Below, piece after piece: positions 1 to 14,020 of a DNA stretch of 64,000 nt. The notes beneath the pieces were generated by a model, which did no database searches, was not told where the DNA came from, and was given only the letters and a program-made list of their open reading frames with translations. Every line of letters begins with the position of its first letter. The stretch's first letter is position 1. Source of the stretch: Streptomyces sp. GS7 (lineage in GTDB: Bacteria > Actinomycetota > Actinomycetes > Streptomycetales > Streptomycetaceae); the NCBI RefSeq assembly GCF_009834125.1, contig NZ_CP047146.1:62001-126000 (forward strand), given 5' to 3'. The translations under genes and the position numbers were made by a program.

Positions 1-2
1 GG

Positions 3-674
3 CTGCGGCACACCACCGCGCCGACGGTGCTGGTCCTCTCCGCCGATCTGCCGTTCCTGACGGCCGCGACCGTACGGGACCTCCTCCAGGCGGCGACCGC
101 GCACGGCGCCGCGCCCCGGGACGGTGCGCTGCTGTGCGATGCCGAGGGCCGCGACCAGCCGCTGGTGGCCGCCTACGGTGCGGCGCCGGTGCGCCGCCGG
201 CTCGACCTGCTGCGCGCCGAACACGGCACCCTGGCCGGGCTGCCGCTGCGCCGCCTGACGTCCGCGCTGGCGCTCACGCGGGTCCAGGACGCCACGTCCA
301 CGGCCTCCTTCGACTGCGACACCTGGGAAGACATCAGCGCGGCTCGCGCCCGTATCAGGGAGCATGGACACGTGTTGGACGAATGGATCACCGCAGTCAA
401 GGCCGAACTGGGCATCGACCTCGATGTCGACACGGCGGCGCTTCTCGACCTCGCGCGGGACGCGGCGCACGGCGTGGCCCGCCCCGCCGCGCCGCTGACG
501 ACCTTCCTCGTCGGTTACGCGGCGGCCCAACAGGGCCGGGACGTGGCCGAGCTGGCGCAGCGTACCGCCGCGCTGGCCGACCGCTGGGCCGCGGAGGCCG
601 AGGCCGAGGAAGCACCGGCGGCCAAGGCGGCGGAGGCGGGCGGCGCCGGCAGCGAAGCGAAGCCCGCGCAATGA
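3..674 (+). CDS. MobA-like NTP transferase with DUF6457-like C-terminus (5' partial)
   Basis: The reading frame is open from the window edge, so the N-terminus with the GTP-binding loop is missing. The visible first part (LVLSADLPFLTAATV) matches the acidic Asp-containing strand of MobA/MobA-like nucleotidyltransferases, which attach GMP to molybdopterin in the cytoplasm. From about nucleotide 370 the protein changes to a helical module (LDEWITAVKAELGIDLDVDT) of the DUF6457 type, then an Ala/Glu-rich tail. Its stop codon overlaps the moeA start (ATGA), so the two genes are translationally coupled. Assignment to Mo-cofactor synthesis rests on both the motif and the moeA neighbour; the exact nucleotide substrate is inferred. 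Confidence 0.8.
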   Translation: MRHTTAPTVLVLSADLPFLTAATVRDLLQAATAHGAAPRDGALLCDAEGRDQPLVAAYGAAPVRRRLDLLRAEHGTLAGLPLRRLTSALALTRVQDATSTASFDCDTWEDISAARARIREHGHVLDEWITAVKAELGIDLDVDTAALLDLARDAAHGVARPAAPLTTFLVGYAAAQQGRDVAELAQRTAALADRWAAEAEAEEAPAAKAAEAGGAGSEAKPAQ

Positions 675-2212
675 CCGACGGGGAGTTCGGCGGCGCGTTC
701 CGCGAGGTGACCGGGGACCCGTTCGACGATGCGCTCGCGCTGGTCAACGACGTCGCCCCGGCGCGCCTGCGGTCCGGTGCCGCGGACGGGCCGTACGGCG
801 CCCGCGACAGCGGACCGTCCGGCGCCGGTGGCCACGGAGGCACCGGCGGCGGGGACGGCCCGCACCACCCCGCCGGGCCCGGTCCCGGGAAGGCCCGGCC
901 GCACGCCGGCCGCCCGGCCACCTCCTGGCCCACGGCCCGGGACGTCGCCGCGCGGGCGGTGCCCGAGCCGCCCGAGCCCGGGACGGCCGCGCTCGGCGAC
1001 GCGCTCGGCCGCACGCTCGCCGCGGCCCTGACGGCGCTCACCGACCTGCCGTCGTTCGACACCTCGGCCATGGACGGCTGGGCGGTCTCCGGCCCCGGCC
1101 CCTGGCGCGTCGTCCGCCCCGCGGAGGACGACGGCGAGCCCGGCCCGTCCGCCGGCATCCTCGCCGGCCACGCCACCACCGAAGCGCTCCCCGACGGCCA
1201 TGCGATCCCGATCGCCACCGGCGCCCGCATCCCGCCCGGCGCCACCGCCGTACTGCGCAGCGAGCACGGCGAGGTCCTCGACCTGCCCGACGGCCGCGCC
1301 CGGCTGTACGCGCCGCGCCCGGTGCCGCCCGGTCAGGACATCCGCCCGCGCGGCCAGGAGTGCCGCCGCGGCGACCACCTGCTCCCGGCCGGCGCCGTGG
1401 TGACCCCCGCGGTCCTCGGCCTGGCCGCGGCGGCCGGCTACGACGAGCTGGCCGTCTACCCCCGGCCCGCCGTCGAAGTGCTGGTCCTGGGCGACGAGTT
1501 GCTGCGCCAGGGGCTGCCCGAGGACGGCCGGATCCGGGACGCGCTCGGCCCGATGCTCGCGCCCTGGCTGCGGGAACTCGGCGCCGAGGCGGCCGCGCCG
1601 CGGCATCTCGCCGACGACGCCGACACGCTGTACGAGGCCCTCGCCGGGTCCACCGCCGACCTGGTCGTCACCACCGGCGGTACCGCGTCGGGCCCCGTCG
1701 ACCACGTGCACCCCACCCTGCGCCGGCTGGGCGCCGAGCTGCTGGTGGACGGGGTGGCGGTGCGCCCCGGCCACCCCATGCTGCTGGCCCGCCTCGCACC
1801 GCGCCGGCACCTCGTCGGCCTCCCCGGGAACCCTCTCGCCGCGGTGTCCGGCTTGCTCACCCTCGCCGAGCCGCTGCTCCGTGCCCTCGCCGCCCGCCGG
1901 CCCGCCGCCCCGTACCGCGCGCCGCTGGCCGCCGCCGTTCACGGCCATCCGCACGACACCCGGCTCGTCCCGGTCGCCTACCGCGACGACGAACGGCACG
2001 GACTGGTGGCCACGCCGCTGCATTTCCAGGGTCCCGCCATGCTGCGCGGCATCGCCGCCGCCGACGCGATGGCCGTGATCCCGCCCGGCGGCGCGGAGTA
2101 CGGCGCCGAGGTCGAACTCCTCGAACTCCCCTGGCCGGCGAGCTGGTCAGCGGGCTGGACCGCCCCCGGCGCGCCCTACGACGCCGCGGATCCTGCGGGA
2201 GGCCCCGCGTGA
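671..2212 (+). CDS. moeA: Molybdopterin molybdenumtransferase MoeA
   Basis: A 513-residue MoeA-family enzyme, which inserts molybdate into adenylylated molybdopterin. Diagnostic segments are the N-terminal TSAMDGWAV (about residues 130-138), the molybdopterin-binding TTGGTASGPVDHV (about 334), and LPGNPLAAV (about 383). The first 100 residues are a Gly/Pro-rich, poorly conserved extension common in actinomycete copies. The start is the ATG overlapping the upstream stop (ATGA), chosen over the longer upstream-open frame because that part is a shadow of the mobA-like gene. The stop overlaps a GTG (GTGA at 2209), the apparent former start of the broken potassium-channel gene, so all three were probably one operon. 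Confidence 0.93.
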   Translation: MTDGEFGGAFREVTGDPFDDALALVNDVAPARLRSGAADGPYGARDSGPSGAGGHGGTGGGDGPHHPAGPGPGKARPHAGRPATSWPTARDVAARAVPEPPEPGTAALGDALGRTLAAALTALTDLPSFDTSAMDGWAVSGPGPWRVVRPAEDDGEPGPSAGILAGHATTEALPDGHAIPIATGARIPPGATAVLRSEHGEVLDLPDGRARLYAPRPVPPGQDIRPRGQECRRGDHLLPAGAVVTPAVLGLAAAAGYDELAVYPRPAVEVLVLGDELLRQGLPEDGRIRDALGPMLAPWLRELGAEAAAPRHLADDADTLYEALAGSTADLVVTTGGTASGPVDHVHPTLRRLGAELLVDGVAVRPGHPMLLARLAPRRHLVGLPGNPLAAVSGLLTLAEPLLRALAARRPAAPYRAPLAAAVHGHPHDTRLVPVAYRDDERHGLVATPLHFQGPAMLRGIAAADAMAVIPPGGAEYGAEVELLELPWPASWSAGWTAPGAPYDAADPAGGPA

Positions 2213-2618
2213 AGCTCCCGTCCCACCACGCCGCGTCACGTGAGCCTCCCGAGGACCGGTCCCACCGGGTGATCCGCCCCGCCGCACTCCGAAGGCGCCG
2301 ATACGGCAGGTCGCCCGACGGCCGCTGATGGCCCTGCCCGTGCTCGTCGCGACGGTCTTCATCGTCTGGAGCGACCGCAAGGGGTACCACGACAACGCCG
2401 GCGGGCCCCTCGATCCGCTCGACTGCGTCTCTCACGCGACCGTCACCCTCTCCACGACGGGACACGGCGGCATCGTCCCCTGCAGCGCCGGCGCCCGGCT
2501 GCTGAACATCCTGCTCGTCACGCCACCGCGCGTGGTCTTCCTGACCATCCTGGTCGGCACGGTCCTGGAGGTGCCGACCGAACGCACCCGCGAGCAACGG
2601 CAAGGGAGACGCCGGAGT
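2209..2618 (+). pseudogene. N-terminal half of a disrupted potassium channel gene
   Basis: The segment from about 2328 encodes a first membrane helix, a YHDNAGG loop, a pore helix, a second helix and the ending LEVPTERTR. It aligns column by column with residues 58-145 of the intact channel at 2648-3766. It is damaged three ways. A GTG start overlapping the moeA stop reads only about 39 codons and ends at a stop at 2326, so a frameshift separates it from the channel frame. The selectivity filter is TGHGG instead of TGYGD. Homology stops near 2612-2618. The missing NAD-binding half is found at 11059-11805. This is the decayed left piece of a split gene. Confidence 0.8.
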
Positions 2619-2647
2619 CGACACCGTGCCGGACGGAACACACGCTT

Positions 2648-3766
2648 TCAGTTCACGTGGTCCCCGGACGTTGCCCGCTGAACGGTGATCAGCCGGTCCG
2701 TGAGCTGGAGCGTCGCGGCCTCGGGCTCGGTGTAGTCCAGCACCCTGCCCCCTCGTAGGACGGCCACGACCAGGTCACTGCACTCGCGGGGGGAACGTCC
2801 CGCCTCGGACTTCGCCACCGCGCGCTCCTTGAGGTCCAGTCCGCTTCCGTACGTCATCAGTTCTTCCAGGACGGTGCTCGCGCTCGGGCTGGTCATCGCC
2901 ATACCGAGCAGCTGGCCCGCCGAGCTGGAGCTCGTGATGACCGTGTCGGCTCCGCTCTGCTTCAGCAGCGGGATGTTCTCGTCCTCCCGGACCGCCACCA
3001 CGATGGAGGCGTGCCTGTTGAGCTGGCGCGCGGTCAGCGTCACCAGGGCGGCTGTCTCGTCCCGATGGGTGGCGACGACCACCTTCGAGGCCCGGTGCAA
3101 CTCGGCCCTGCGCAGCGCGTCGGAACGGGTCGCATCCCCGAGGACCCCCACGAGCCCGTCGTTGCCGGCTGCATCCACCGTCTGCTTCTGCGGATCGACC
3201 ACAACGATCTTCTGCTTCGATACGCCCTGGCCGACCAGGGTTTCGACGGTGTGCCGGCCCTTGGTTCCGTACCCGATGACGACGATGTGGTCGCGCATAC
3301 GGGAACGCCAGCGATGAACGCGTACTTGATGCCGGGTGCGCTCGGTGAGCACTTCCAGCGTGGTGCCGACCAAGATGATCAGGAACAGGACGCGCAGCGG
3401 CGTGACGACGAAGATGTTGGCCAGCCGAGCGCCGTCGCTGACCGGGGTGATGTCGCCGTAGCCCGTGGTCGAAAGGGTCACGGTCGCGTAGTACGCCGAG
3501 TCGAGGAGACCGACGGTCCCGCCGGCGTTGTCGTGGTACCCGGCACGGTCGACCCACACGACGAACGTCGTGAGTGCCAGCACCACAAGGGCCATGACCA
3601 GCCGACGGAAGACCTGCTGAAGCGGTGGTTTCACGCCCTGCACGGGCATGACGACGGACCGGCCGTCCTCGGCGTCCTCCTCGGCCTGGGCTCGTGAACG
3701 CGACCAGAGAGACCGGAAGATGGAGACTTTCCCGGTGTCGCGGAGTGGCTGTTGCTCTTCCCTCAT
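2648..3766 (-). CDS. Two-TM potassium channel with RCK/TrkA-N domain
   Basis: 372 residues: a basic cytoplasmic start, TM1 at about residues 54-73, pore helix with canonical filter TGYGD (101-105), TM2 at about 118-137, a linker TERTR...HRWRSRMRDH, then a Rossmann RCK domain beginning VVIGYGTKG (162-170) and a C-terminal TrkA-C-like part. This is the architecture of prokaryotic ligand-gated K+ channels that sense NAD(H), nucleotides or Ca2+; the ligand here is unknown. An internal Met at residue 40 is an alternative start. The gene lies about 30 bp inside the inferred left end of the accessory element, on the strand opposite to the broken channel, and may substitute for it. Confidence 0.88.
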   Translation of the reverse strand: MREEQQPLRDTGKVSIFRSLWSRSRAQAEEDAEDGRSVVMPVQGVKPPLQQVFRRLVMALVVLALTTFVVWVDRAGYHDNAGGTVGLLDSAYYATVTLSTTGYGDITPVSDGARLANIFVVTPLRVLFLIILVGTTLEVLTERTRHQVRVHRWRSRMRDHIVVIGYGTKGRHTVETLVGQGVSKQKIVVVDPQKQTVDAAGNDGLVGVLGDATRSDALRRAELHRASKVVVATHRDETAALVTLTARQLNRHASIVVAVREDENIPLLKQSGADTVITSSSSAGQLLGMAMTSPSASTVLEELMTYGSGLDLKERAVAKSEAGRSPRECSDLVVAVLRGGRVLDYTEPEAATLQLTDRLITVQRATSGDHVN

Positions 3767-3908
3767 AGGGGCGGCCCCTCTTGTGCGGCTTGCTCTGCGG
3801 AAGTCCGTCCATAAGGCATAAGGCCATCCTCAGGGATCAGGCTGCCTCGTGTCGCGTTCGGAGTACCCCGTCAGGCATTCGGTCACATCCGGATGTACTC
3901 CTGGATAC

Positions 3909-4502
3909 ATGACATCGGACAGCCCCCAGCCGCCTGATGACTCCGGCAAGCGGGAGAAGAAGAAAAAGAAGAAGCGTCCGGAGCCTACGGCCTGGGCGGC
4001 GTGGGGGAGCCTGGCAGTGGCGGTCATCGCACTGGGAAACTCCATCTATGGAGCCCAGATTGCCAGGGATGCCAGTGATCAGGCGAAAAGGACGGAGCGT
4101 CGTTCCGAGGAAGAGAGTGAGAAAGCTCAAGCATCGCTGGTCTCGTACTCCTTCCAGAGCAACCCCCAAGGGCAGGCGGAGTCTCTGACCATCTTGAATC
4201 GCAGTGATGCCGCGATCGCCAAGGTGGTCATGGTGTTCGAGGACGTGAAGCGGTATGTCTACTTCGATGAAATTCCGCCTTGCAGTTTGCAGAAAGTCGA
4301 ACAGCTTCACAAATATTACCTCGGGGCGCATGAATTTATTCGTTTCCTGGATGGTGATGGCGTCGCGTGGGAGAAGGCGATGGCGGATGGTCGTTCCGGC
4401 CTCAAGAAGATCGATAAGCCGGATCCGCCGCAAGACACCAGTAATGCCACTCCCGCCATTGCCGCTGGTGAATCGAGCGGCGCTCTGGCGAACTGTCGGT
4501 GA
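3909..4502 (+). CDS. Hypothetical protein, Lys-rich N-terminus and one TM segment
   Basis: A 197-residue protein I do not recognise. A Lys-rich stretch (KREKKKKKKR) is followed by one hydrophobic segment (about residues 26-45), a charged coiled-coil-like stretch rich in Glu/Arg, and a soluble domain with IPPCSLQKVEQLHKYYLG. The topology suggests a type II membrane protein with the C-terminal domain outside. The ATG at 3909 is chosen over an in-frame ATG at 3849 because the extra 20 residues look like random upstream sequence. Base composition is clearly less GC-rich than the core genes (AAG/AAA-rich, AT third positions), consistent with horizontally acquired DNA. Confidence 0.55.
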   Translation: MTSDSPQPPDDSGKREKKKKKKRPEPTAWAAWGSLAVAVIALGNSIYGAQIARDASDQAKRTERRSEEESEKAQASLVSYSFQSNPQGQAESLTILNRSDAAIAKVVMVFEDVKRYVYFDEIPPCSLQKVEQLHKYYLGAHEFIRFLDGDGVAWEKAMADGRSGLKKIDKPDPPQDTSNATPAIAAGESSGALANCR

Positions 4503-4544
4503 GCCCCACTCGCGAGTGCCCCGCTTCGAGTGAGGGAATTGCCG

Positions 4545-4658
4545 GGCGGTCTGCCCGTCTCGCCGAAGCGCGTTGGTCAACTTGCGGAACCGATGTGGCC
4601 TCAGCCCGGAGCAAGGGGCTGTCCAGTACGGCTCCGACGCCGTGATCACACCAGGCAC
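4545..4658 (-). pseudogene. IS5-type transposase, N-terminal relic
   Basis: From a GTG at 4658 the minus strand reads VPGVITASEPYWTAP then SGLRPHRFRKLTNALRRDG, the characteristic N-terminal start of a family of actinomycete IS5-like DDE transposases. Homology ends after about 38 codons and the frame runs into unrelated sequence, so only the 5' end of the IS survives. Upstream, the motif TTATCGGGCAGCCC at about 4690-4705 could be the remaining terminal inverted repeat, although no partner end was found. It lies just upstream of the DUF1963-like gene. Confidence 0.65.
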
Positions 4659-4714
4659 ACCATGGCCCTCTCACCCGTGGTCAGCAGTTATCGGGCAGCC
4701 CTTAGAGTGAGCGG

Positions 4715-5425
4715 ATGGTCGAACCTGATGTGCGGGGAATGCGGGCGGGGTTGCCTGCGCGCGCGATCGAGGTCGGAACCGAACCTCTGGTCCGGCCGGT
4801 ACGGAACTCGGTGGGCGGCTGGCCCTTCCTCGACGAGGACCAGGAGTGGCCGGAGTGTTTCTGCGGCGAGCGGATGGCGCTGTTCTTCCAGCTCGATATC
4901 CCCCCGGACCTGGAACCTTTCGGCGGCGACCACCTGTTGGTCTTTCACTGCCGCGCGCACAACGACGCATCCGACCCGCAATTGACCGACGGGCGACTCG
5001 TGCCCCGGTACTGGGAAGCTCCACACCCGCCCTATCCGCGTCCGTTCTGGAGCTTGCTGCTCCAGCGCCACGCGACGCTGCCGGCGGCGGAGCCGGAACC
5101 ATCCCTGTGCGCGCTACCGCTGCAACTGCGCCCCTTCGTGGACAGTCCCGACGCGCAAGGGCTGGGAGCCCAGACATTCAAAGTGGGCGGTGCGCCATCC
5201 TGGGCGCAGGGCCCCGAATTCTACCGGTGCGCGTGCGGCGCCGAGCTGGTGTACCTCTGCCAGGTGCCGGAGGGCATGGAATTCGCCGTCCACCCCGGCC
5301 AACCAGAGCAGCCCTACAGCGTCGACGCCAACACCTACGGGCTTTTCCTCGGCAACGAGGTCTATCTGCTGGCCTGCCCTGCCCACTGCGACCCGGCTGC
5401 AGTCTGGCCGGTGAACCAGAACTGA
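4715..5425 (+). CDS. DUF1963/YwqG-like protein
   Basis: 236 residues with the layout of DUF1963 (YwqG-like) proteins: GGWPFLDEDQEWPECFCGERM followed by LFFQLDIPPDLEPFGG near the N-terminus, then a second half with paired Cys (FYRCACGAEL) and a closing CPAHC. The cysteine pairs suggest a zinc-ribbon insertion. The function of the family is not established. The gene stands between two relics of similar IS transposases (4545-4658 and 5466-5564), so it may have been mobilised as their cargo. A 16-bp stem terminator follows at 5669. Confidence 0.6.
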   Translation: MVEPDVRGMRAGLPARAIEVGTEPLVRPVRNSVGGWPFLDEDQEWPECFCGERMALFFQLDIPPDLEPFGGDHLLVFHCRAHNDASDPQLTDGRLVPRYWEAPHPPYPRPFWSLLLQRHATLPAAEPEPSLCALPLQLRPFVDSPDAQGLGAQTFKVGGAPSWAQGPEFYRCACGAELVYLCQVPEGMEFAVHPGQPEQPYSVDANTYGLFLGNEVYLLACPAHCDPAAVWPVNQN

Positions 5426-5465
5426 CCCTCGGTATCGCCGACTTGCCCGGCGGACACCGTCCTAT

Positions 5466-5564
5466 CCGGCGGACGAGGAAGACGTAGGCCCTCGTGCCGT
5501 ATCTCGTGGCTACGGCACGGGAGTTCTTGAGGGCGTTGATCGTCCGCTCGACTTCGTTTCGGCG
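5466..5564 (-). pseudogene. IS5-type transposase, C-terminal relic
   Basis: The minus strand encodes RRNEVERTINALKNSRAVATRY then GTRAYVF, matching the C-terminal region of IS5-family transposases in which the catalytic Glu lies in the NxVER(x)6K segment. The match breaks off at both sides: only about 33 codons remain and the downstream reading is unrelated. It has the same orientation as the N-terminal relic at 4545-4658 but lies on the wrong side to be the same copy, so it derives from a second IS. Confidence 0.6.
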
Positions 5565-5668
5565 CTCCGGAGACTGCCCTGGAGCCTGTCCCGCGATCAT
5601 GTGACGGGGCAGTCGGTTCCCGGTGCCTGTCCGATGGGTCGGCGCCGGTCAGAAGGACACCAGCACGT

Positions 5669-5708
5669 CCAAGCCTCCCTCACCACACGTTCGGTGAGGG
5701 AGGCTTGG
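5669..5708 (+). terminator. 16-bp perfect stem terminator
   Basis: Arms CCAAGCCTCCCTCACC (5669-5684) and its exact complement (5693-5708) enclose an 8-nt loop. It follows the DUF1963-like gene and precedes the methyltransferase. There is no clear T-run, as is usual in high-GC actinomycetes. Confidence 0.75.
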
Positions 5709-5872
5709 TCGCGAACGGCTGGCCCGGGAGGATAGCGGCTGTCGCTGCGGCGCCCTGGACGTCACTGGCTGAACGTGCCCTTGCTGCTGGACTCATAGGA
5801 CACGCCCTGGGGGTGGGGGGCGGCTCGGGGCTTGAGAAGCTGCGAACGTGCGCGGGTGTTAGCTTCTTTCCC

Positions 5873-6502
5873 GTGGGGGAACACCAGGACGGGACCAGGG
5901 CGGCCTACGACGAGGTCGTCGAGCTGTATGCATCGAAGTTCGCTAATCGGTTGGAGACGCAACCGTTCTCGCGGAACATGATCGGCACCTTCGCCGAGCT
6001 GGTGCGCGGGACGGGGAACCCGCGGGCAGCCGACGTCGGGTGCGGGCCCGGACATCTGACGGCCATGCTGCACGACCTGGGGCTGGACGCCTTCGGGCTC
6101 GACCTCTCCCCGGGCATGATCGACCATGCCCGGCGGGCCCATCCGGCGCTGCGGTTCGACGAGGCGCGGATGGAGGACCTGCCGGTCGAGGACGGCGCGC
6201 TCGGCGGCGTGCTGGCCCACTACTCGATGATCCACACCCCTCCTGGGGAACTACCCGCGCTGCTCGCCGAGCAGGTGCGTGTCCTGGCGTCAGGGGGCCT
6301 GCTCCTGGTCTCGTTCTTCGCGACCGACGGACCCGAGCCGGTCCGCTTCGATCACAAGGTGACGCCCGCCTATAGCTGGCCGGTTGACCGGTTCGCCGAG
6401 CTGCTGGCCGGGGCCGGGCTCGTCACGTTCGCCCGGCTGCTCCACGACCCGGCCTCCGAGCGGGGCTTCCTCGACGCCCACCTGCTGGCCCGCCTCCACT
6501 AG
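5873..6502 (+). CDS. Class I SAM-dependent methyltransferase
   Basis: 209 residues. Motif I of the Rossmann methyltransferase fold is plain (ADVGCGPGHLTAML), followed by motif II/III equivalents LDAFGLDLSPGMIDHARR and RMEDLPVEDGALGGVLAHYSMIH. The first 40 residues (YDEVVELYASKF) match the N-terminal cap of ubiquinone/menaquinone-type and trans-aconitate-type methyltransferases. The substrate cannot be deduced. GTG 5873 is chosen because similarity begins right after it; a longer in-frame start at 5705 would add unrelated residues. It sits in the accessory element with no operon partner other than a NUDIX relic downstream. Confidence 0.85.
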   Translation: MGEHQDGTRAAYDEVVELYASKFANRLETQPFSRNMIGTFAELVRGTGNPRAADVGCGPGHLTAMLHDLGLDAFGLDLSPGMIDHARRAHPALRFDEARMEDLPVEDGALGGVLAHYSMIHTPPGELPALLAEQVRVLASGGLLLVSFFATDGPEPVRFDHKVTPAYSWPVDRFAELLAGAGLVTFARLLHDPASERGFLDAHLLARLH

Positions 6503-6525
6503 GTTGCCCGTGGGCCTCATAGAGG

Positions 6526-6662
6526 ACGGGGATCCGACCGCATCGAGTGGATCCCGCTCGCCGACGTGCGCGGGATGATCGACCGCCGGGAGATCATCAG
6601 CAGCGGGTCGCTCGTCGGCCTTCTGTATGTCCTGATGGATGAGGCGATATGCCCTGATGGAT
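6526..6662 (+). pseudogene. NUDIX hydrolase, C-terminal relic
   Basis: One frame reads DRIEWIPLADVRGMIDRREI then ISSGSLVGLLYVLMDEAI, the typical last helix region of ADP-ribose-pyrophosphatase-like NUDIX proteins encoded in actinomycetes. The NUDIX box itself is absent, so only the tail survives. A 22-bp tandem duplication (6631-6652 and 6653-6674) shifts the frame just before the original end. Non-functional. Confidence 0.6.
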
Positions 6663-6670
6663 GAGGCGAT
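6631..6670 (+). repeat. 22-bp-period tandem duplication in NUDIX relic
   Basis: The segment CCTGATGGATGAGGCGAT occurs at 6631-6648 and again at 6653-6670. It looks like a slippage duplication: removing one copy restores a reading frame that ends MDEAIR followed by a stop. Confidence 0.8.
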
Positions 6671-6848
6671 CCGCTGATTCAGGCGGGAGTACTTCCCCGA
6701 GGCGTCCTTCAAAGGCGGTGACGGCCTCTCCGCGGTACGGAGTCAACTGCCTGTAGAACTCCCCAAGGTGGCCTGCCAGCCTGTTTCAGCCTTCTGTGAC
6801 CGGACAGCCCAGACAGCGCCGCTTCGCGCGATCCGGTCGGTTTCCGCA

Positions 6849-6864
6849 GGTGAGAGCTCTCACC
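6849..6864. repeat. 16-bp perfect palindrome
   Basis: GGTGAGAGCTCTCACC is self-complementary with no spacer. It is in a gene-free stretch; an operator or IS-end remnant is possible but unproven. Confidence 0.5.
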
Positions 6865-6963
6865 GGACAGTCGAACAGCTGGGACACCTGCTCGTCGGCA
6901 GGCTCCGAACAGCGGAGGGGCCCCACACCGATCGGATGCTGTCGGTCGATTCGGAGCCTGTGT

Positions 6964-7008
6964 GACGTCGGCCTTCACGACGTGGTTGTAGTCGTGAAGG
7001 CCGACGTC
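6964..7008. repeat. Perfect 18-bp inverted repeat, 9-nt loop
   Basis: GACGTCGGCCTTCACGAC (6964-6981) is repeated as its exact complement at 6991-7008 around GTGGTTGTA. It is not attached to any intact gene end. It could be a terminator or a cruciform/transposon-derived structure. Confidence 0.7.
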
Positions 7009-7410
7009 GTCGCCGGGGAAGGTGTCGGTGCCGATGCGGCCGATGGCGGCAGGTAAGGCTCCGGCGGAGGCGGTGCAGGTAGCGCGGGCGGAATTTCTTT
7101 GAGGGCACCATCCGCGAAGCGCACAGGAAGACCACAGGCTCCTCGTATCACCCGGGCCCGCCGCGCCCTGGCCGGACTCGAATGCCGACATGTCCCACCG
7201 GTTTCCGGCGGCGATGGTGCCGTAAACCGGCCACGGGCGTCGGATCTCGCAAGGCATGTGAAGGAGTTTCCGCGATCCCGTGAACGGTCCCACGGGTCGG
7301 CATGTGGGGATATTGGGAACCTCGGCAGAAATTACCGATGAGCCGGGGTCGCCGGGCGGCCGGTCGGCATGGTTTGCTCTCGCGCCAAGCCACCAGTGGA
7401 AAGGACAGTC

Positions 7411-7656
7411 ATGCGTAACGACTTCACCCCCGTCGAGACCCGAGAGATTTCCGAGGCCGACCTGGACAGCGTTTCCGGCGGCGTTCTCGGCGACATGGTT
7501 CAGGACGGCACGTCCGCGCTTCCGGGCCTGCCCGGGCTGCCGGGACTGCCGGGCCTGCCGGGTCTGCCCAGCGGCACGATCAGCGGCGGCGGTGGCATCC
7601 AGGTCACCGGCCCCATCTCGGGCCAGGCCGGCTTTTCCGGCATAGCCGGGCTCTGA
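7411..7656 (+). CDS. Orphan RiPP-like precursor peptide, double-Gly leader, LPG repeats
   Basis: 81 residues with a good ribosome site (GGAAAGGA) 5-8 bp before the ATG. The leader MRNDFTPVETREISEADLDSVSGG has the ELD..SGG pattern of double-glycine leaders found in type-A2 lantipeptide and NHLP/bacteriocin precursors. The predicted 57-residue core after Gly24 contains five LPG triplets (encoded at 7519-7563), then Ser/Thr/Gly-rich sequence and no Cys at all, so classical lanthionines cannot form. No modification enzyme or C39 peptidase transporter is nearby, hence orphan. It could also be a small secreted Gly/Pro-rich peptide. The leader call is firm as a pattern; modification and export are inference. 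Confidence 0.65.
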   Translation: MRNDFTPVETREISEADLDSVSGGVLGDMVQDGTSALPGLPGLPGLPGLPGLPSGTISGGGGIQVTGPISGQAGFSGIAGL

Positions 7657-7665
7657 CGGCTACTG

Positions 7666-7706
7666 GGCCCCGAAAATCCTCTTTGTACTGCTGGTCATTC
7701 GGGGCC
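7666..7706 (+). terminator. Hairpin after precursor gene
   Basis: GGCCCCGAA (7666-7674) pairs with TTCGGGGCC (7698-7706) across a 23-nt loop, 10 bp after the precursor stop codon. Confidence 0.5.
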
Positions 7707-7712
7707 TGGATT

Positions 7713-7748
7713 CTGCGCCCCGTCGATCGCTTGGTCGGCGGGGCGCAG
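7713..7748. terminator. Second hairpin between precursor and Zn-ribbon-like gene
   Basis: CTGCGCCCCG (7713-7722) pairs exactly with 7739-7748 around a 16-nt loop. The region is convergent (plus-strand precursor, minus-strand cysteine protein), so it may serve both. The rest of 7749-7977 shows no supported gene. Confidence 0.5.
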
Positions 7749-7977
7749 TGCTGCGAGGTGCGGGTGGGGGTGCGGGCCCGAGGTGGCCTCGCCCAGGCGC
7801 ACCGGTGCTCATACCGCGCTCACCCAGCGCGCCAGGACGCCGGTGACCCGTCGCATGGCGCCGGCGGCCGGCGTGGTCGCCCTCTCGCACGCGTCCACGA
7901 CGGCTACAACTGGTCAATAGCCAACTTCCTTAAGCAAAAGTGCCCGAGAGGGGCGCAATCGGGTGATTGCGATTGCC

Positions 7978-8271
7978 TCATGTGGGGCTTTTCATCCACT
8001 CGACGAGCCGAGCCCACAAGCCGGCTCCCGATCGACTCGGTGAACCCTCTGAATGCTCGGGAGTCCGCGTGCGTTGCGACGACCCGCCCTGACGGGCTCG
8101 CGCCGACTCCGCTCGCGTCGACGCCTCCGCTGTGCGCGCACCCCGGCGCTCCGCAGGCTCACACATGCACCGCTGAGCCATCGGCACGCCCATCATCACT
8201 TGGTCCACATGCCTCCCGCAGCCCTCATAGGTCGCCTTCCGGCACGACCGACAGGCAGCACGTTGACACAT
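7978..8271 (-). CDS. Small Cys-rich (zinc-ribbon-like) protein with WARL tail
   Basis: 97 residues. It begins MCQRAACRSCRKATYEGCG, then RHVDQVMMGVPMAQRCMC, a pattern of small actinobacterial proteins with two CxxC-like pairs that probably bind zinc. The middle is low-complexity. The end, GLWARLVEWMKSPT, is an amphipathic Trp-rich tail nearly identical to the tail of the protein at 8685-9242 on the other strand. The ATG at 8271 is chosen over 8295 because GGAGGGGAG lies just upstream and the conserved family start MCQ follows. Exact role unknown; it may be a redox or metal accessory protein of the neighbouring transporter. Confidence 0.7.
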   Translation of the reverse strand: MCQRAACRSCRKATYEGCGRHVDQVMMGVPMAQRCMCEPAERRGARTAEASTRAESARARQGGSSQRTRTPEHSEGSPSRSGAGLWARLVEWMKSPT

Positions 8272-8684
8272 AACTCCCCTCCATTGGCTCTTCATTCAAG
8301 ATCCACGATATCCACGCCATCACCACAAGAGACTCCGGTGGTTTCACCCTCTCCCCAAAAATCTGACTTGTACCGGCACGAGCCGCAATCATGAGGTCGA
8401 ATTGCGACACAAGTGGCCGCCATGCTGGTCGTGGATGTCCAGACATGAGAGACAGAAGTCTCATAACCGTTGCGTGGAATATCACGCCAAGTGGCGCCAA
8501 GTGACCCGATTGAAAAATACCCTGAAGTTGCTCGAGATGCTGAAACGGTGATTGCATCACGCCCGGTCGAGGAACGGAGACGCAGCACCTTATTGCCACT
8601 TCCTGTCACCGCATTGCTTTTCAGACCGTCGACCGGGCGCAGTGAGGGCAGGAATCGAGAACGGCAACCACTCTCCCCGAACGG
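8272..8684. promoter_or_regulatory. Divergent intergenic region of lower G+C
   Basis: About 410 bp between two divergently transcribed cysteine-motif genes whose products share a tail. It is noticeably less GC-rich than its surroundings and holds small dyads such as TGAGA...TCTCA near 8445-8465. Overlapping minus-strand frames exist but have no recognisable content. It most likely carries both promoters. Confidence 0.4.
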
Positions 8685-9242
8685 GTGGTGCGCCGGTCAG
8701 GAAGGAGCAACGTGGGTTGCTCGCACGCCGCAGGATGCCCCCTTTTCCCCCTACTCAGGGCGAGCTTGCAAGGTTGGCGCGAATACTACTGCGACAGCGA
8801 GGATCGATGGCTCGGCTGTGCGCGCTATCAGATGTCACTCACCGGCGAGCGCGTGCCGATCAGCCTGCTGCCCAACGGAGCCCGCGCGCGACACCTCGAA
8901 CCCCCGGCCGAGGTGGACCGATCCGGCGCCACCAGCCCGGCGGCGGTACCCCGGCAGGCCCCACCGCCACGGTCCGCTCCCGGGTCACCGGAGACCGCGT
9001 CCTGGCCCCAGCCAGCGCCGACCCGGCCACATGAGCAGTCAGGACCCGGAACCGCGATACCGGAGGCCAGGGCCCAGTTCGGGGCAACACCTCCGCCAGC
9101 AGCTGTCCGGCCCAACCAACCGTCACCGCCCCCGCAGGTTGCCCGGCCTTCAGACAGCCTCGCTCCACACACGGGGCAAGCGCCCAGCCCGAAGCGCGGC
9201 TGGTGGGCTCGACTTGCCGATTGGATGAGAGGACCCGCATGA
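8685..9242 (+). CDS. Cys-motif protein, first gene of YeeE/YedE operon
   Basis: 185 residues. The N-terminal third carries CPLF then WREYYCDSEDRWLGCARY and VPISLLPNG. This resembles the YC..(D/E)....CARY....vP..LlPN module found at the ends of many bacterial signalling proteins, probably a metal or redox site. A long Pro/Ala-rich linker follows, and the protein ends KRGWWARLADWMRGPA, matching the tail of the 7978-8271 protein. The stop overlaps the next start (ATGA), so it is coupled to the transporter genes. The start is uncertain. An accessory or sulfur-relay role for the transporter is inferred from position only. Confidence 0.6.
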   Translation: MVRRSGRSNVGCSHAAGCPLFPLLRASLQGWREYYCDSEDRWLGCARYQMSLTGERVPISLLPNGARARHLEPPAEVDRSGATSPAAVPRQAPPPRSAPGSPETASWPQPAPTRPHEQSGPGTAIPEARAQFGATPPPAAVRPNQPSPPPQVARPSDSLAPHTGQAPSPKRGWWARLADWMRGPA

Positions 9243-9895
9243 GTACCTACTGGCCCTGGTGGGCGGGCGCTATCGGGCTCGCTCTGGTCACCATCAACCA
9301 CACCCTCATCACCGATCGGTCTCTCGGGGTGTCGGCCGCGTGGGATCGCGTGTTGCACTGGCGCCGGGAACGCCGCCTCGAGCAGATGGACGAGGAGTTC
9401 ACCGACGATCAAGCTCTCGCCGAGGCGCTCGCCGCAGCTACAGCGGAGCACTTCGGTACCGGCACCGGCGCGTCCACCGTGCCGCAGGAACCGTACGGGA
9501 CGTCGCGACCGCTCGAAGCGGACGCCGAACCGGCAGCGGGTGAGCGCCCCGCGGCCACGAGCCTGCGCCCGGCCCCGCTGGTCACCCAGGCTGCCCTGCT
9601 GATGTCGGTCTTCCTCGGCGGGCTCGTCGCCGCGGTCACCTCCGGGCGGTTCCACCTCCGCCACGACATGGGCCCGGGTTTCCGGAACCTGGTCACCGCC
9701 AATCCGGCCACCATGATCGCCGTGCTGTTCGTGGGTGGCGTGCTGGTCGGCTTCGGCACGCGGCTGGCCGGTGGGTGCAGCTCCGGCCACGGACTCAGCG
9801 GCTGCGGTCGGCTGCGCCCGGTCAGCATCGTCGCGACCGCCGTGTTCTTCGGCACCGCCGTCGTGGTGTCGTTCCTCCTGTGGAAGGTGATCTGA
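9239..9895 (+). CDS. YeeE/YedE-family transporter, first half
   Basis: 218 residues: an N-terminal TM, a charged cytoplasmic loop of about 90 residues, then four or so TM segments including GTRLAGGCSSGHGLSGCGRL, the hallmark cysteine motif of YeeE/YedE (DUF395, TsuA-like) sulfur-compound transporters. ATG 9239 has AGAGGA upstream and overlaps the preceding stop; a longer GTG start at 9203 lies inside the upstream gene. The long hydrophilic insert between TM1 and the rest is a divergence from compact YeeE halves. With the next gene it should form one complete transporter for thiosulfate or a related sulfur species. Confidence 0.85.
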   Translation: MSTYWPWWAGAIGLALVTINHTLITDRSLGVSAAWDRVLHWRRERRLEQMDEEFTDDQALAEALAAATAEHFGTGTGASTVPQEPYGTSRPLEADAEPAAGERPAATSLRPAPLVTQAALLMSVFLGGLVAAVTSGRFHLRHDMGPGFRNLVTANPATMIAVLFVGGVLVGFGTRLAGGCSSGHGLSGCGRLRPVSIVATAVFFGTAVVVSFLLWKVI

Positions 9896-10311
9896 TGCGC
9901 ACCCGAGGCGCGATTCTGCTGGCCAACATCCTCACCGGACTGGCCCTCGGCTATACCGTCACCAACATCGGCTTCGGCGACTACGCCGAGCTGAACCGCA
10001 TGTTCACCTTCCAGGACCTGCGCATGCTCCTCTCCTTCGCCGGCGCCGTGGTGATCATCGTGTGCGCGTTCGCTCTGCTGCGGGTCCGTCGCACCCCAGG
10101 GCGCATCCACGCCGGCGTGATCCCCGGCGCGGTGTTGTTCGGTACGGGCTGGGCGATCTCAGGTGGGTGCCCCGCAATCCCGATCATCCAGGTCGCCAGC
10201 GGATACCTGCCTGCCCTGATCACCATCGTCGGCGTCATCGTCGGTATCCGGCTGTGCCGCTGGGCCAATGCCCGATACTTCCACCTCGACCGCGGCTCCT
10301 GCGGGCTGTAG
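9895..10311 (+). CDS. YeeE/YedE-family transporter, second half
   Basis: 138 residues with about four TM segments and the second cysteine motif, AISGGCPAIPIIQVASG, where the partner half has GGCSSGHG. Its start overlaps the previous stop (TGATG), so the two halves are made in equal amounts. In TsuA-type proteins the two pseudo-symmetric halves form one polypeptide with conserved Cys residues lining a thiosulfate path; here they are split as in the YeeE/YedE pairs next to persulfide enzymes. No sulfurtransferase gene is adjacent. Confidence 0.85.
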   Translation: MRTRGAILLANILTGLALGYTVTNIGFGDYAELNRMFTFQDLRMLLSFAGAVVIIVCAFALLRVRRTPGRIHAGVIPGAVLFGTGWAISGGCPAIPIIQVASGYLPALITIVGVIVGIRLCRWANARYFHLDRGSCGL

Positions 10312-10716
10312 CCAAAGGCGCCCACCGACACGAGCCGTGGAGGCAGGGGCTCCCGCTTCGACGATCTCCCGACGTCCCCCGGCACCCCATGCACACCTCG
10401 GGCTGGGCGACGCAGACCGTCGGCCCCAGCCACAACACCCCGCCCTGTACGGCGGTTGTCCGCTGGCGAGTACTCCTGGGTGCGTGGTGGTGTGCGGGCG
10501 GCGGGCGTCCGCCGGGACCGTTCGCCAGGCCGCGGCCCGGCGGGGCGGCCGGGCCGCCCGGCGCGCCGCCCGGCGCGCCCCTGGGTAAGTGAAGTCAGCT
10601 TTTGACAGTCGCCGGAGCGTGGTTTCAGACGGCGCGGAGTGTGCGGGGGGGGGGCTGTCGGCGGTGATGCGATAGGCGAGTTGGGCACGGTCGGCGCCGG
10701 TGCGCGGCTCTTCGCC
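10312..10716. other. Gene-free stretch with GC-rich stems
   Basis: No supported gene. From about 10533 to 10580 the sequence is a run of overlapping GGCCGGGCC/CGGCGCGCCG-type self-complementary blocks that could terminate the transporter operon. From 10640 upward the minus strand continues the integrase frame, but without family similarity. Confidence 0.4.
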
Positions 10717-11034
10717 GCGGTAGCCGATCTCCCCGTTGGGCAGGCGTACGCGCTTGCGCTGCCATGCGCTCGTGTCCGGTTCCTCGTACGCGTAGACGTA
10801 CCGTCCGCCCCGCGACTCGACGAACGACCGGTTGTCTTTCTCCTGCTCATCGCGGCCCTTGATGTCCCGCCCGGTCAGGGGACGGAAGGCGGGCTCGGTC
10901 TCCGTGTTGTCGGTAGCGTCGTTCTCGGCAGCGGCGGATCCCTCGTCGGCCTCGAAGGACAGACGGACAAGACCGGCTCAGTTCTGACCTTTGAGATCGC
11001 CCCAACGAGCCCGCCGCACAAGCTCGTTGTCCAT
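10717..11034 (-). pseudogene. Serine recombinase/integrase, N-terminal relic
   Basis: From an ATG at 11034 the minus strand reads MDNELVRRARWGDLKGQN, an in-frame TGA (10978-10980), then AGLVRLSFEADEGS and, further on, LTGRDIKGRDEQEKDNRSF, RGGRYVYAYEEPDTSAW and RVRLPNGEIGYR. This is the N-terminal region of a family of Streptomyces large serine recombinases. Similarity stops at 10717, so the catalytic domain's remainder, zinc ribbon and coiled-coil are gone. Its start lies 28 bp from the right junction of the split channel gene, the usual position of an integrase next to its att site. Confidence 0.7.
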
Positions 11035-11058
11035 GAACTTGGGTTACTTTCGCCAAAC

Positions 11059-11805
11059 TGCTGGAGAAACGCCTTGCGCGATCACACCGTCATCGTCGGC
11101 TACGGGACCAAGGGCCGGTCCGCCGTCCAGACCCTCTGCGCCACGGGCCTTGCCCGCGACCGCATCGTCATCGTGGACCCCATCAGCAAGGTGGTCGACG
11201 CGGCGGTGGTCGAGGGGTTCGCGGGTGTGGTCGGCGACGCGACCCGCAGTGACGTCCTGCTGCGGGCCGAGATCCAGCGCGCGCACCAGGTCGTCATCGC
11301 CACCCAGCGCGACGACACCGCCGTCCTGGTCTCGTTGACCGCTCGTCAGCTCAACAAGCGGGCCAACATCGTCGCCGCGGTGCGGGAGGAGGAGAACGCG
11401 CCGCTGTTGCGGCAGTCCGGCGCCGACGCGGTGATCACCTCGGCCAGCGCGGCCGGTCGGCTGCTCGGGCTCTCCGTGCACAGTCCCAGCGCGGGCACCG
11501 TCATGGAGGACCTGATCCAGCAGGGCAGCGGTCTCGACCTCGTGGAACGGCCGGTGGTCAAGGCGGAGGTCGGCCGGTCCGTACGGGAGACCGATGACCT
11601 GGTCGTTTCGGTCCTGCGGGGGCACCGGCTGCTGGGGTACGACGACCCGGAGGCGAGCCCCCTGCAGGCCGCGGACCGGCTGATCACCATCGTCCGGGTC
11701 GCCTCGGCACAGGAGTCGGACCAGTTCGGCAGGGCGCCCGTCCGCCCCGCCAAGCCGACGCTGCCCGGCACCGGCGTCGCCCCGATGCGCCGGGCGGACG
11801 AATAA
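11059..11805 (+). pseudogene. C-terminal RCK/TrkA-N half of disrupted potassium channel gene
   Basis: From WRNALRDHTVIVGYGTKGRS onward the frame is a complete RCK NAD-binding plus TrkA-C-like region, very similar to residues 153-372 of the channel at 2648-3766. No membrane domain precedes it: the open frame upstream (10639-11058) is the antisense of the integrase relic. A TTG at 11074 with GGAG upstream could allow expression as a soluble RCK protein, so it might not be entirely dead. It ends with a Pro-rich tail. Its missing half is at 2209-2618. Confidence 0.75.
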
Positions 11806-11921
11806 GGAGCAGCCGGGCGGGGTCGGGCAATCGGCTTCTCCGGGGCCCCGATCCGTCCGACCTGCCGCGACGCCGACCCGCACCGTCGCCCCGCGGCCGG
11901 TCGGCGAGTAGCCTCGCGCCC

Positions 11922-12899
11922 ATGCGAGCGATCACTATCCCCGAGCCCGGTGGCCCCGAAGCACTCGTCTGGGCCGAAGTGCCCGACCCACAGCCCGCCG
12001 AGGGCGAGGTCCTGATCGAGGTCGCGGCCAGCGCCGTGAACCGCGCCGACCTGCTCCAGCGCCAGGGCTTCTACGACCCGCCGCCCGGCTCCTCCCCGTA
12101 CCCCGGTCTGGAGTGCTCGGGGCGGATTGCCGCGGTCGGTCCCGGCGTGCACGGCTGGGCGGTCGGAGACGAGGTATGCGCGCTGCTGGCGGGCGGCGGG
12201 TACGCCGAGAAGGTCGCCGTGCCGGCCGGTCAGGTGCTGCCGCTGCCGCCCGGACTCGACCTCGTCACGGCCGCCGCGCTCCCCGAAGTCGCCTGTACCG
12301 TCTGGTCGAACGTCTTCATGATCGCGCACCTGCGACCCGGGGAGACGCTGCTGGTCCACGGCGGCGCCAGCGGCATCGGCACGATGGCGATCCAGCTCGC
12401 CAAGGCGGTCGGCGCCCGGGTCGCGGTCACCGCGGGCGGCCCCGAAAAGCTGGCCCGCTGCGCCGAGTTGGGCGCGGACGTCCTCATCGACTACCGCGAA
12501 CAGGACTTCGTCCAGGAGATCCGCAAGGCCACCGACGGCAAGGGCGCGGACGTCATCCTCGACATCATCGGCGCCAAGTACCTCCAGCGGAACGTCAAGG
12601 CGCTGGCGATCGCCGGACGCCTCGCGATCATCGGCCTGCAGGGCGGAGTGAAGGCGGAGCTGAATCTCGCCGCCCTGCTCTCCAAACGCGCCGCGATCAC
12701 CGCCACCGGTCTCCGGGCCCGCCCGGTGAGCGAGAAGTCGGCCATCGTCGCCGCCGTCCGCGAGCACGTCTGGCCGCTGATCGGCAATGGCCAGGTCCGC
12801 CCGATCGTGGACCGCACGCTCCCGATGCCGGAGGCCGCCGAGGCGCACCGGATCCTGGAGGCCAGCACCCATGTCGGCAAGGTCGTGCTGACCGTCTGA
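11922..12899 (+). CDS. NAD(P)H-quinone oxidoreductase, MDR superfamily
   Basis: 325 residues. GroES-like N-terminal domain (AVNRADLLQRQGFYDPPPG, PGLECSGRIAAVG), then a Rossmann domain with LVHGGASGIGTMAIQLAKAVGARV. This matches the PIG3/Qor-type zinc-independent NADPH:quinone oxidoreductases; no zinc-ligand cysteine cluster is present. A TAGCCT box lies about 10 bp before the ATG and there is no clear ribosome site, so the transcript may be leaderless. It follows the disrupted channel gene and is the first intact core gene after the accessory element. Confidence 0.9.
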   Translation: MRAITIPEPGGPEALVWAEVPDPQPAEGEVLIEVAASAVNRADLLQRQGFYDPPPGSSPYPGLECSGRIAAVGPGVHGWAVGDEVCALLAGGGYAEKVAVPAGQVLPLPPGLDLVTAAALPEVACTVWSNVFMIAHLRPGETLLVHGGASGIGTMAIQLAKAVGARVAVTAGGPEKLARCAELGADVLIDYREQDFVQEIRKATDGKGADVILDIIGAKYLQRNVKALAIAGRLAIIGLQGGVKAELNLAALLSKRAAITATGLRARPVSEKSAIVAAVREHVWPLIGNGQVRPIVDRTLPMPEAAEAHRILEASTHVGKVVLTV

Positions 12900-13049
12900 A
12901 CCGACCGCCCGTAGCGCCCGGGGCCGTTGCCGCCCCGTGCCCCTCCCCCTGCCGGCAGGTCACTCGGTGCGACCTGCTCAAGATGCCGCGGATATTCCGC
13001 CGTGTGACGCTGGGCACGTCACTCGACGGCTCGGCACGGGAGGGGCACT

Positions 13050-13844
13050 GTGGTCGTACCAGGACTCCGTTCGCGCATTGCCACCGGACTGCTGGTGGTC
13101 GCCGCCGCCCTACCCTTCCCCATGACAGCCGGCACCGCGATGGCCGTGGACGTCCGTGCCACACCGGCCGCCCGCCCCGACGAACCGAAGGACGACCACG
13201 CGGCTAATCCCCCGCTGGCCGTAGGGCACGCGATGGCGGGCTATCCCGGACGCCCGCGGGTGCCGGTGCGCCTGCTGGACTTCCCCAGTGCCGACGACCT
13301 CCGGGACCTGCCGGACCACCTCTTCGCGTTGCCTGGCACCCTCCCCGGGTTCTCGCACCACCCCGGCGGCCCGTTCCTGTTTGCGTGGCGCCGCCACCAC
13401 CCGCATCACCCGTTCGGTCCACACCTGCACTGGCCGCCGTACTTCGCCCTGGACCTCACCGACCGTGACGCCGACCCCCGGGACGCGGACCGCTCCGAGC
13501 CCGCCAACCCGCCCGCAGCCGCCCCCAGCCGGCAGCCGGCCCCCAGCTCCGCTCCCGTGCCGCGCCGCAGCCCTGCTCGTACGGATCCCGGCGCGGCGCC
13601 CGCCCGCCCGGAGCAGCCGTCGACCTCGCGCGACCGCGACCGCGCCGGTCCGCTCCCGAGCCCGTACCGGCCGCTGCCGTCGCCTGAGCAGGCCCCGGAC
13701 GCCGCCGGACCGGCACCTGCGGAGAGCCCGTATGCGCTCGATGCCCCGGCGGCCCGCGTCGAGCGGGTCCTTCCGATGGGCGCCGGAATGGCGCTCACCG
13801 GCCTGGGGCTCGCCTTCCTCGCCCTCCGGCTGCGCCGGCGCTGA
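13050..13844 (+). CDS. Secreted/anchored His- and Pro-rich protein
   Basis: 264 residues from a GTG with GGGAGGGG just upstream. It has an N-terminal signal peptide (TGLLVVAAALPFPMTAGTAMA), a central region rich in His and Pro (RRHHPHHPFGPHLHWPP), a long Pro/Arg/Ala-rich linker, and a C-terminal TM helix (GAGMALTGLGLAFLALRLRRR) ending in positive residues. The layout is that of a wall-spanning protein anchored by its C-terminus. No catalytic domain is recognisable; the His cluster could bind metal. Confidence 0.65.
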   Translation: MVVPGLRSRIATGLLVVAAALPFPMTAGTAMAVDVRATPAARPDEPKDDHAANPPLAVGHAMAGYPGRPRVPVRLLDFPSADDLRDLPDHLFALPGTLPGFSHHPGGPFLFAWRRHHPHHPFGPHLHWPPYFALDLTDRDADPRDADRSEPANPPAAAPSRQPAPSSAPVPRRSPARTDPGAAPARPEQPSTSRDRDRAGPLPSPYRPLPSPEQAPDAAGPAPAESPYALDAPAARVERVLPMGAGMALTGLGLAFLALRLRRR

Positions 13845-13850
13845 GCACGT

Positions 13851-13864
13851 GTTTCACGTGAAAC
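13851..13864. promoter_or_regulatory. parS: parS site 1
   Basis: Perfect GTTTCACGTGAAAC, the Streptomyces ParB-binding palindrome. First of four perfect copies in 184 bp between the secreted protein gene and bpa. Confidence 0.9.
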
Positions 13865-13879
13865 GCACGCGAGATCGCC

Positions 13880-13893
13880 GTTTCGTATGAAAC
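13880..13893. promoter_or_regulatory. Degenerate parS-like palindrome
   Basis: GTTTCGTATGAAAC keeps both outer half-sites but differs at three central positions. A similar degenerate copy, GCTTCGCATGAAAC, is at 13909-13922. Both lie between perfect sites. Confidence 0.45.
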
Positions 13894-13937
13894 GGCCCTC
13901 GTGGCCCGGCTTCGCATGAAACCGTCGTAGCTCCGTG

Positions 13938-13951
13938 GTTTCACGTGAAAC
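13938..13951. promoter_or_regulatory. parS: parS site 2
   Basis: Perfect GTTTCACGTGAAAC within the bpa-upstream cluster. Confidence 0.9.
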
Positions 13952-13992
13952 GATGCGACTCTGCGGGTTCATGCCAAATGGGGCGGTCACGC

Positions 13993-14006
13993 GTTTCACG
14001 TGAAAC
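13993..14006. promoter_or_regulatory. parS: parS site 3
   Basis: Perfect GTTTCACGTGAAAC within the bpa-upstream cluster; 28 bp centre-to-centre from site 4. Confidence 0.9.
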
Positions 14007-14020
14007 AGGAGAATTCCGCG

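Follow-up and report, generated by a model that had tools for sequence, protein, structure and literature searches.

Near the left end of a 64,000-nucleotide stretch of DNA from Streptomyces sp. GS7 (positions 62,001-126,000 of a 9.07-Mb contig; the whole stretch is referred to here as the window), two pieces of one potassium-channel gene lie 8.45 kb apart, the left containing only the pore and the right only the RCK domain, and the locus raises the question of what becomes of a channel gene whose halves have been parted. The RCK half seems to have survived as an independent gene, and it probably serves the replacement channel that is encoded beside it. The order in the window is moeA, the pore-only piece, a complete channel gene on the opposite strand, 7.3 kb of further sequence, the RCK-only piece and a qor-like gene. 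We refer to the broken channel and its unbroken orthologues as type 1 and to the opposite-strand channel as type 2; both are of the MthK-type class, with PF07885 and PF02254 in type 2, and TTGYGD plus RCK in intact type 1.

That the channel gene was split by an insertion had been proposed in a sequence-only reading of the window, which placed two pieces of a single gene between 2209 and 11805, and the relatives bear this out. The 60 relatives searched gave loci for the 29 best (L004-L032, about 3.7 kb each), and in all 29 pore and RCK are covered by a single uninterrupted alignment, in which no stop comes earlier than residue 353 of 381; moeA lies upstream in all 29 and qor within the fetched stretch in 26, such that an unbroken type 1 stands between two genes that had been rightly taken for core neighbours. 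The two pieces match the same type-1 orthologue, that of genome G036 (75% identity over the main segment of the pore piece, 84% for the RCK piece), and the intact gene reads TERTR, 12 residues with Trp at position 8, and then RDH, which is the linker predicted by joining the pieces. The GC(C/T)GGAG noticed at both breakpoints is indeed common to them and fits the attachment core of the element described below. An assembly artefact was set aside, as the same arrangement is present in the sister genome G215 (S. albospinus; L113/L160) and in many other species.

Three further claims survive in part. A left piece with pore helices is in place but it is not an intact half, having a frameshift near 2277-2280 and the filter TTGHGG rather than the TTGYGD of intact type 1, and it therefore looks decayed. 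The right piece does encode only the RCK part but is not a mere fragment, with its own TTG start at 11074 and a Shine-Dalgarno sequence at 11063-11067. The 8.4 kb between them are an insertion, and its genes are accessory in character, but they do not constitute a single intact element: a second channel is among them, together with integrase and GntR-like remnants and other cargo, and the set may derive from more than one event. The same reading did not foresee that the RCK half is conserved as a gene and begins at an internal start already present in intact channels, that the split is found in many lineages, or that the neighbouring channel has in most cases lost an internal start of its own.

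The principal features of the locus are as follows.

2209-2612, forward strand: apparently decayed two-helix pore part of the type-1 channel, GTG start (tblastn pieces, translations)
11074-11805, forward strand: RCK-only gene, 243 amino acids, TTG start that is the former internal start codon of type 1 (PF02254, low dN/dS)
2648-3766, reverse strand: type-2 potassium channel (pore plus TrkA_N/RCK), intact, 372 amino acids (Pfam PF07885, PF02254)
2608-2626, forward strand: degraded attL junction CGCCGGAGTCGAC (in relatives CGCTGGAG, then TCAAC)
11060-11067, forward strand: attR core GCTGGAGA, doubling as the Shine-Dalgarno sequence of the RCK gene
674-2212, forward strand: moeA-like gene, core left neighbour (reading frame; upstream in 29 of 29 relatives' loci)
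11922-12899, forward strand: qor-like zinc-binding dehydrogenase, core right neighbour (reading frame, Pfam, relatives' loci)

The two halves have fared differently. The pore remnant, which retains a PF07885 match at 2328-2678, has ratios of nonsynonymous to synonymous substitution (dN/dS) of 0.52 and 0.29 against two intact genes (85 codons), whereas the RCK part gives 0.11 and 0.14 against the same two. The sister G215 is 94% identical to the window in RCK, 91% in moeA and 99% in qor.

A putative internal start in intact type-1 channels

In MthK a second initiation inside the gene, at Met107, yields free RCK subunits that complete a gating ring of eight RCK domains, according to the accounts in PMC9440719 and PMC2920069. 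Intact type-1 genes likewise carry a Shine-Dalgarno sequence and a start codon inside the gene, at the joint of pore and RCK. We counted codons column by column in 129 aligned intact type-1 sequences (one of 130 was dropped). The Arg codon at the site is AGG or AGA in 128 of 128, whereas none of the other 22 conserved Arg columns exceeds 10%, and the Leu codon is TTG in 125 of 125, whereas the other 28 conserved Leu columns reach 17% at most; a Shine-Dalgarno sequence followed by NTG occurs at the site in 128 of 129 sequences and 25 times elsewhere among the 40,119 codons scanned, site included. At the start codon, 126 of the 130 unique sequences have TTG and 4 have GTG, and the Trp-Arg pair ahead of it is written TGGAGG (80), TGGAGA (49) or TGGAAG (1), against a background in the same genes in which TTG makes up 4.0% of 5,431 other Leu codons and AGG plus AGA 3.1% of 4,027 other Arg codons.

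The signal extends through the genus and beyond it. Among 392 Streptomyces genomes, 375 have a channel match at E 1e-40 (17 have none), and the strict start pattern is found in 351, a count in which not every match was checked to lie in the channel and for which a reversed control pattern also matches a minority of genomes. Of the 24 genomes with a channel and without the pattern, 21 were read directly and have NTG after a Shine-Dalgarno-like stretch (GGAAGG in G014 and G328); the region is degenerate in the other three (G125, G387 and G394). After removal of duplicates and of sequences shorter than 150 residues, the internal start is present in all 17 more distant sequences (16 from other genera and one divergent second copy in Streptomyces G151), and the residue there varies among L, V and M while the codon stays NTG; the RCK-only class of the same set includes one damaged member, L135 of G387, that has no start. 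In the order to which G054 belongs, 50 of 94 matches were read (the 30 best and a further 20 selected to cover different families, L247 and L153 being the same gene), and 49 have the start, again with L, V or M as the residue. The sole failure, L283 (G438:C51), is a second copy that reads TGG CAG ... GTC at the site, and the other copy, L282, has the start; this pair is a possible independent case of the division of labour proposed below. Conservation of this kind would be expected if a start site were under selection. The fractions come from related sequences and are not independent trials.

Integration of the element at the internal start

Six genomes (G170, G125, G394, G309, G207 and G397) have the left junction CGCTGGAG followed by TCAAC; that of G215 is slightly changed (CGCCGGAG) and the copy in the window is degraded further. 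On the right side the RCK gene starts again with a GCTGGAG-like sequence. Ahead of it, G000, G114, G170, G207, G215 and G309 can be aligned over about 100-430 bases, which belong to a serine recombinase gene read in the divergent direction and represent its 5' end. A tblastn search with the G207 proteins finds N-terminal integrase remnants in the window, G114, G170 and G215, the one in the window covering residues 1-110 of 557 at 80% identity (11034-10705) with one internal stop.

Two genomes contain much fuller versions. G397 has a near-intact actinomycete integrative and conjugative element (AICE), contained in a single contig and measuring about 10.5 kb between attR and attL. A pore part whose filter is intact lies outside attL and an RCK gene outside attR, and type 2 is absent. 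The insert of G207 is 14 kb long and holds recombinase, RepSA, FtsK/TraB-like and GntR-like genes as well as a type 2. The two are 82% identical in recombinase, 83% in RepSA, 86% in the FtsK-like protein and 81% in the GntR-like protein. The recombinases (559 residues in G397, 557 in G207) are open along their length and have NCBIfam XisF/CcrB-type matches that fall below the cut-offs of those models; the G207 RepSA match has an E-value of 4.8e-141 and a score of 470.7 bits, short of the curated cut-off of 700 bits, that of G397 has a frame change near the N-terminus, and the FtsK/TraB/EccC-like matches in G207 are weak. The element has a recombinase, a RepSA initiator with a translocase, and flanking att repeats, with CGCTGGAG at both ends in G397 and G207 and an empty site in relatives. 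The matching junctions and the G397 element show that the insertion is at the internal start. The element's own integrase presumably performed it, and because the att core stands at both ends, integration leaves the RCK side with a complete Shine-Dalgarno sequence and its start codon. The attP, inferred by eye, suggests short inverted arms (AAACCG/CGGTTT in G207, imperfect in G170 and G397). At E 1e-120 or better, a cut-off that leaves weaker relatives uncounted, the recombinase family occurs in 6 of the 392 genomes and is at the channel in three of them (G207, G309 and G397, that of G309 having a stop). Integrase relatives with 56-61% identity are found at G161:C1:1721603, G406:C42:62739 and G088:C1:2736255, and since the one in G161 is far from its channel gene they likely use other attachment sites.

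The remaining features of the window's insert are these.

3849-4502, forward strand: hypothetical protein (77% identity in G215)
4715-10311, forward strand: cargo block without alignment to the sister's insert (reading frames, Pfam, nucleotide matches), comprising the next four entries
4715-5425, forward strand: hypothetical protein
5873-6502, forward strand: methyltransferase
7411-7656, forward strand: Gly-Leu-Pro peptide
9242-9895 and 9895-10311, forward strand: two Sulf_transp/YeeE-like genes
10648-11034, reverse strand: serine integrase remnant running into the C-terminal end of a GntR-like regulator (10713-10648)

Within positions 1-16000 we find no RepSA or FtsK match, and only the integrase N-terminal and GntR C-terminal remnants. 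Alignment of the window covered 49 of 57 listed relatives. Its insert shares 1.9 kb on the left side and 0.35 kb on the right side with the 3.1-kb insert of G215, and the roughly 6.2 kb between these shared stretches are its own; the methyltransferase, peptide and YeeE-like genes are therefore either later arrivals or were lost in G215. The peptide has 81 residues with Gly-Leu-Pro repeats (GLPGLPGLPGLPGLP) and no match in Pfam or NCBIfam, and the adjacent YeeE/YedE-like pair (9242-10311) has no aligned counterpart in the sister's insert. G+C dips to 0.57 at 4001-4500 and 8251-8750 inside the insert and is about 0.70-0.83 across most of moeA, qor and beyond. At the left edge of the locus the moeA stop overlaps the type-1 start (GTGA, 2209-2212), which suggests that the two are translationally coupled.

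RCK-only genes and the neighbouring type-2 channel

RCK-only genes occur in at least 36 of the 392 genomes, a lower bound because genomes were picked by eye from the match table (those with two matches or a low score; 47 besides the window were inspected). All 36 share one start position, the Leu codon of 'ALRDH', which is TTG in 31 and GTG in 5 and follows GGAGG or GGAGA. Pairwise dN/dS is 0.03-0.30 for 12 chosen pairs of RCK-only genes, compared with 0.04-0.17 for 10 pairs of intact RCK parts, and 0.07-0.44 between RCK-only genes and their nearest intact relatives; the pairs tested thus look selected. On a tree of 159 RCK sequences (71 of them intact, after thinning at 95% identity, with 12 of 17 outgroup rows) the split label requires 12 changes in a quick search, at least 6 of them forced by starred branches. 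A single ancient split was set aside on this basis, and horizontal transfer of whole loci could contribute to the changes. A starred clade of 19 RCK-only rows has kept the gene. AlphaFold gives a model of the window's RCK-only protein (243-residue monomer, mean pLDDT 89.1, pTM 0.68), and its best fold match in the PDB is the RCK of the MthK gating ring (E 4.9e-16), at a TM-score of about 0.5 and a root-mean-square deviation of 13.6 that we take as a probable difference in lobe orientation; KtrA rings are also among the matches.

In 33 of the 36 genomes an opposite-strand type 2 accompanies the RCK-only gene, and 32 of these paired type-2 genes have no internal Shine-Dalgarno sequence; that of the window reads TGG CGT TCC CGT ATG at the site. 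Of nine unpaired type-2 genes eight keep it (G414, G372, G084, G075, G265, G318, G327 and G243), and these too sit in the interval from moeA to qor and are read on the opposite strand, in genomes where the searches made found no type-1 part. Type 2 is one clade (support 98 on the RCK tree and 100/100 on the type-2 tree), and since the unpaired, Shine-Dalgarno-bearing genes branch first within it, the sequence was likely lost in one or two events. The pattern is suggestive, and we read it as reciprocal loss, in which two sources of free RCK may have coexisted, as they still appear to in G114, before one of them decayed. In G207, G309, G215 and the window, type 2 is enclosed by attL and attR and is no more than about 100 bases from attL; in the window its RCK part is 61% identical to the RCK-only protein. 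That type 2 is obligatory cargo of the element was set aside, as it is absent from G397 and G170.

Two further observations concern the arrangement of these genes. In L104 (G125) and L108 (G170) an intact-filter pore part lies 2.2-2.6 kb from RCK with no type 2, and these are perhaps recent or failing splits. In L033 (G013) and L034 (G017) the near-palindrome GGCACCATGGTTCC, perhaps an operator, is common to the space between divergent type-2 and RCK-only genes.

We suggest the following sequence of events. Actinobacterial channels of this family would be dual-product genes like MthK, yielding a full-length subunit and a free RCK subunit, the signal for the latter being TGG AGG/AGA, 6 nucleotides, and then TTG, GTG or ATG. 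An AICE with a serine integrase took this region as its chromosomal attachment site, entering inside the Shine-Dalgarno sequence; the pore part was thereby cut off and, in the window, decayed, and the RCK part persisted as a separate gene, parted from its old promoter. Some inserts (G207, G309 and the lineage of the window) carry a type 2 next to attL, which would supply the pore and four tethered RCK domains, with the RCK-only protein supplying the other four to give a gating ring from two genes. With a source of free RCK next door, type 2 could then lose its internal start, and we infer that the free gating subunit of type 2 is now the RCK protein of the old gene. Taken as a whole, from dual-product gene through insertion at the internal start to adoption of the surviving RCK by type 2, we consider this account probably correct; the narrower proposition, that one integration knocks out the host pore and frees its gating subunit for a channel borne by some of these elements to adopt in a mixed ring, we hold tentatively, at somewhat less than an even chance.

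Several observations weigh against this account. Three genomes (G170, G397 and G267) have an RCK-only gene without type 2, G394 has a type 2 with neither Shine-Dalgarno sequence nor RCK-only gene, and G114 keeps both starts. RCK parts are damaged in G125 and G387 and there is none in G394, and some RCK-only genes have evolved faster than intact ones (dN/dS against the nearest intact gene of 0.44 in G245 and 0.28 in G114). With one or two losses the association with pairing cannot reach significance once relatedness is allowed for: a correlated-loss test on the type-2 tree has only two independent pairs and no power, and we give no weight to a Fisher test (p 7e-7), which takes no account of relatedness. 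For the E. coli channel Kch, moreover, removal of the putative internal start left expression and function unaltered (Kuo 2003, as cited in PMC2920069).

The damaged or missing RCK parts, and the clearly decayed pore half of the window, are also what plain insertional inactivation would produce, with both halves leftovers, an RCK frame that has not yet decayed and a type 2 that works alone. Start and Shine-Dalgarno sequence are however kept in 36 RCK-only genes, dN/dS among the 12 pairs is low, and a clade of 19 has retained the gene, all of which make simple inactivation very unlikely. A different objection concerns the signal itself. Shine-Dalgarno-like codons slow ribosomes, and TGG AGG with TTG, lying as it does between membrane part and RCK, might be a pause site that aids folding rather than a start. 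This would account for the AGG codon, but a pause needs no start, and the codon 6 nucleotides downstream is held to NTG as its residue varies; in G131, G170 and G220, furthermore, the RCK-only gene has an in-frame stop 5-6 codons upstream and no other start between, and we regard a pause site as highly improbable.

If the RCK-only protein is functional, it need not assemble with type 2. It could form a ring of its own with another transporter or act as a soluble sensor, as the RCK-only genes of G170, G397 and G267 would allow, and soluble RCK proteins such as TrkA and KtrA do serve other transporters in the account of PMC2920069. We think such a separate function unlikely given that type 2 adjoins 33 of the 36 genes, nearly always lacking its own internal Shine-Dalgarno sequence, and given the similarity of the two RCK parts in the window. 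More open to doubt is the origin of type 2, which may have been acquired or duplicated separately and have come to the same locus by chance. Both the G397 element and the G170 insert lack it, and the eight unpaired genes also sit between moeA and qor, but its position close to attL in four genomes points to the element, and most genomes with a high-scoring type 1 show one match only at E 1e-40; separate acquisition is a real possibility, though not the one we would expect.

Relation to known systems and significance

The channel is MthK-like and the element is an AICE, both of them known kinds. A PDB sequence search with type 1 gives GsuK as the best match and MthK next (E 1.6e-17 for MthK). 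MthK and types 1 and 2 share a two-helix pore plus RCK, and by the alignment ranges the start described here lies roughly 7-10 residues downstream of MthK Met107, just before the first RCK strand. Unlike MthK, the start here is TTG, GTG or ATG with a strong Shine-Dalgarno sequence conserved across actinobacterial families, and in the Streptomyces genomes with an RCK-only gene the putative free RCK would come from a separate gene. GsuK carries both RCK domains on one chain, whereas here two genes would supply them. KtrA and TrkA resemble the present case in that a free RCK protein has its own gene, but the partner here would have an RCK of its own, and the gene arises by the splitting of a channel gene. 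Putative internal starts in Kch and MthK-like proteins had been noted earlier, including one before RCK in Kch (both in the account of PMC2920069).

The element itself resembles the AICEs with serine recombinases described in the survey of PMC3218068, which share a RepSA-type replication gene, an FtsK/TraB-like translocase, a GntR regulator and a serine recombinase; 19 of the 144 AICEs in that account have serine recombinases, some inside protein genes. It differs from them in having its attachment site in a potassium-channel gene, at an internal start, and the word potassium is absent from the main text of the survey. In the open-licence papers searched we find no description of a Streptomyces RCK channel that has an internal start or is split into two genes, and none of a channel-gene attB. 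As far as that literature shows, what appear to be new are the codon-level conservation of an internal start across actinobacteria, the use of that start as an integrase target, and the survival of RCK as a separate gene beside a channel whose own internal start has been lost.

The importance of free RCK subunits outside MthK is unsettled, the Kch start being removable without effect. Many genomes with repeated splits serve here as a test, in which the free-RCK product usually survives when the gene is broken. This second product may escape gene callers biased towards ATG or towards starts further upstream. The locus illustrates how a gene can be split by way of an internal start that it already possessed, and it adds an unusual integrase target site; in the proposed natural gating ring made from two genes, mutations could be confined to either the pore-linked or the free RCK domains.

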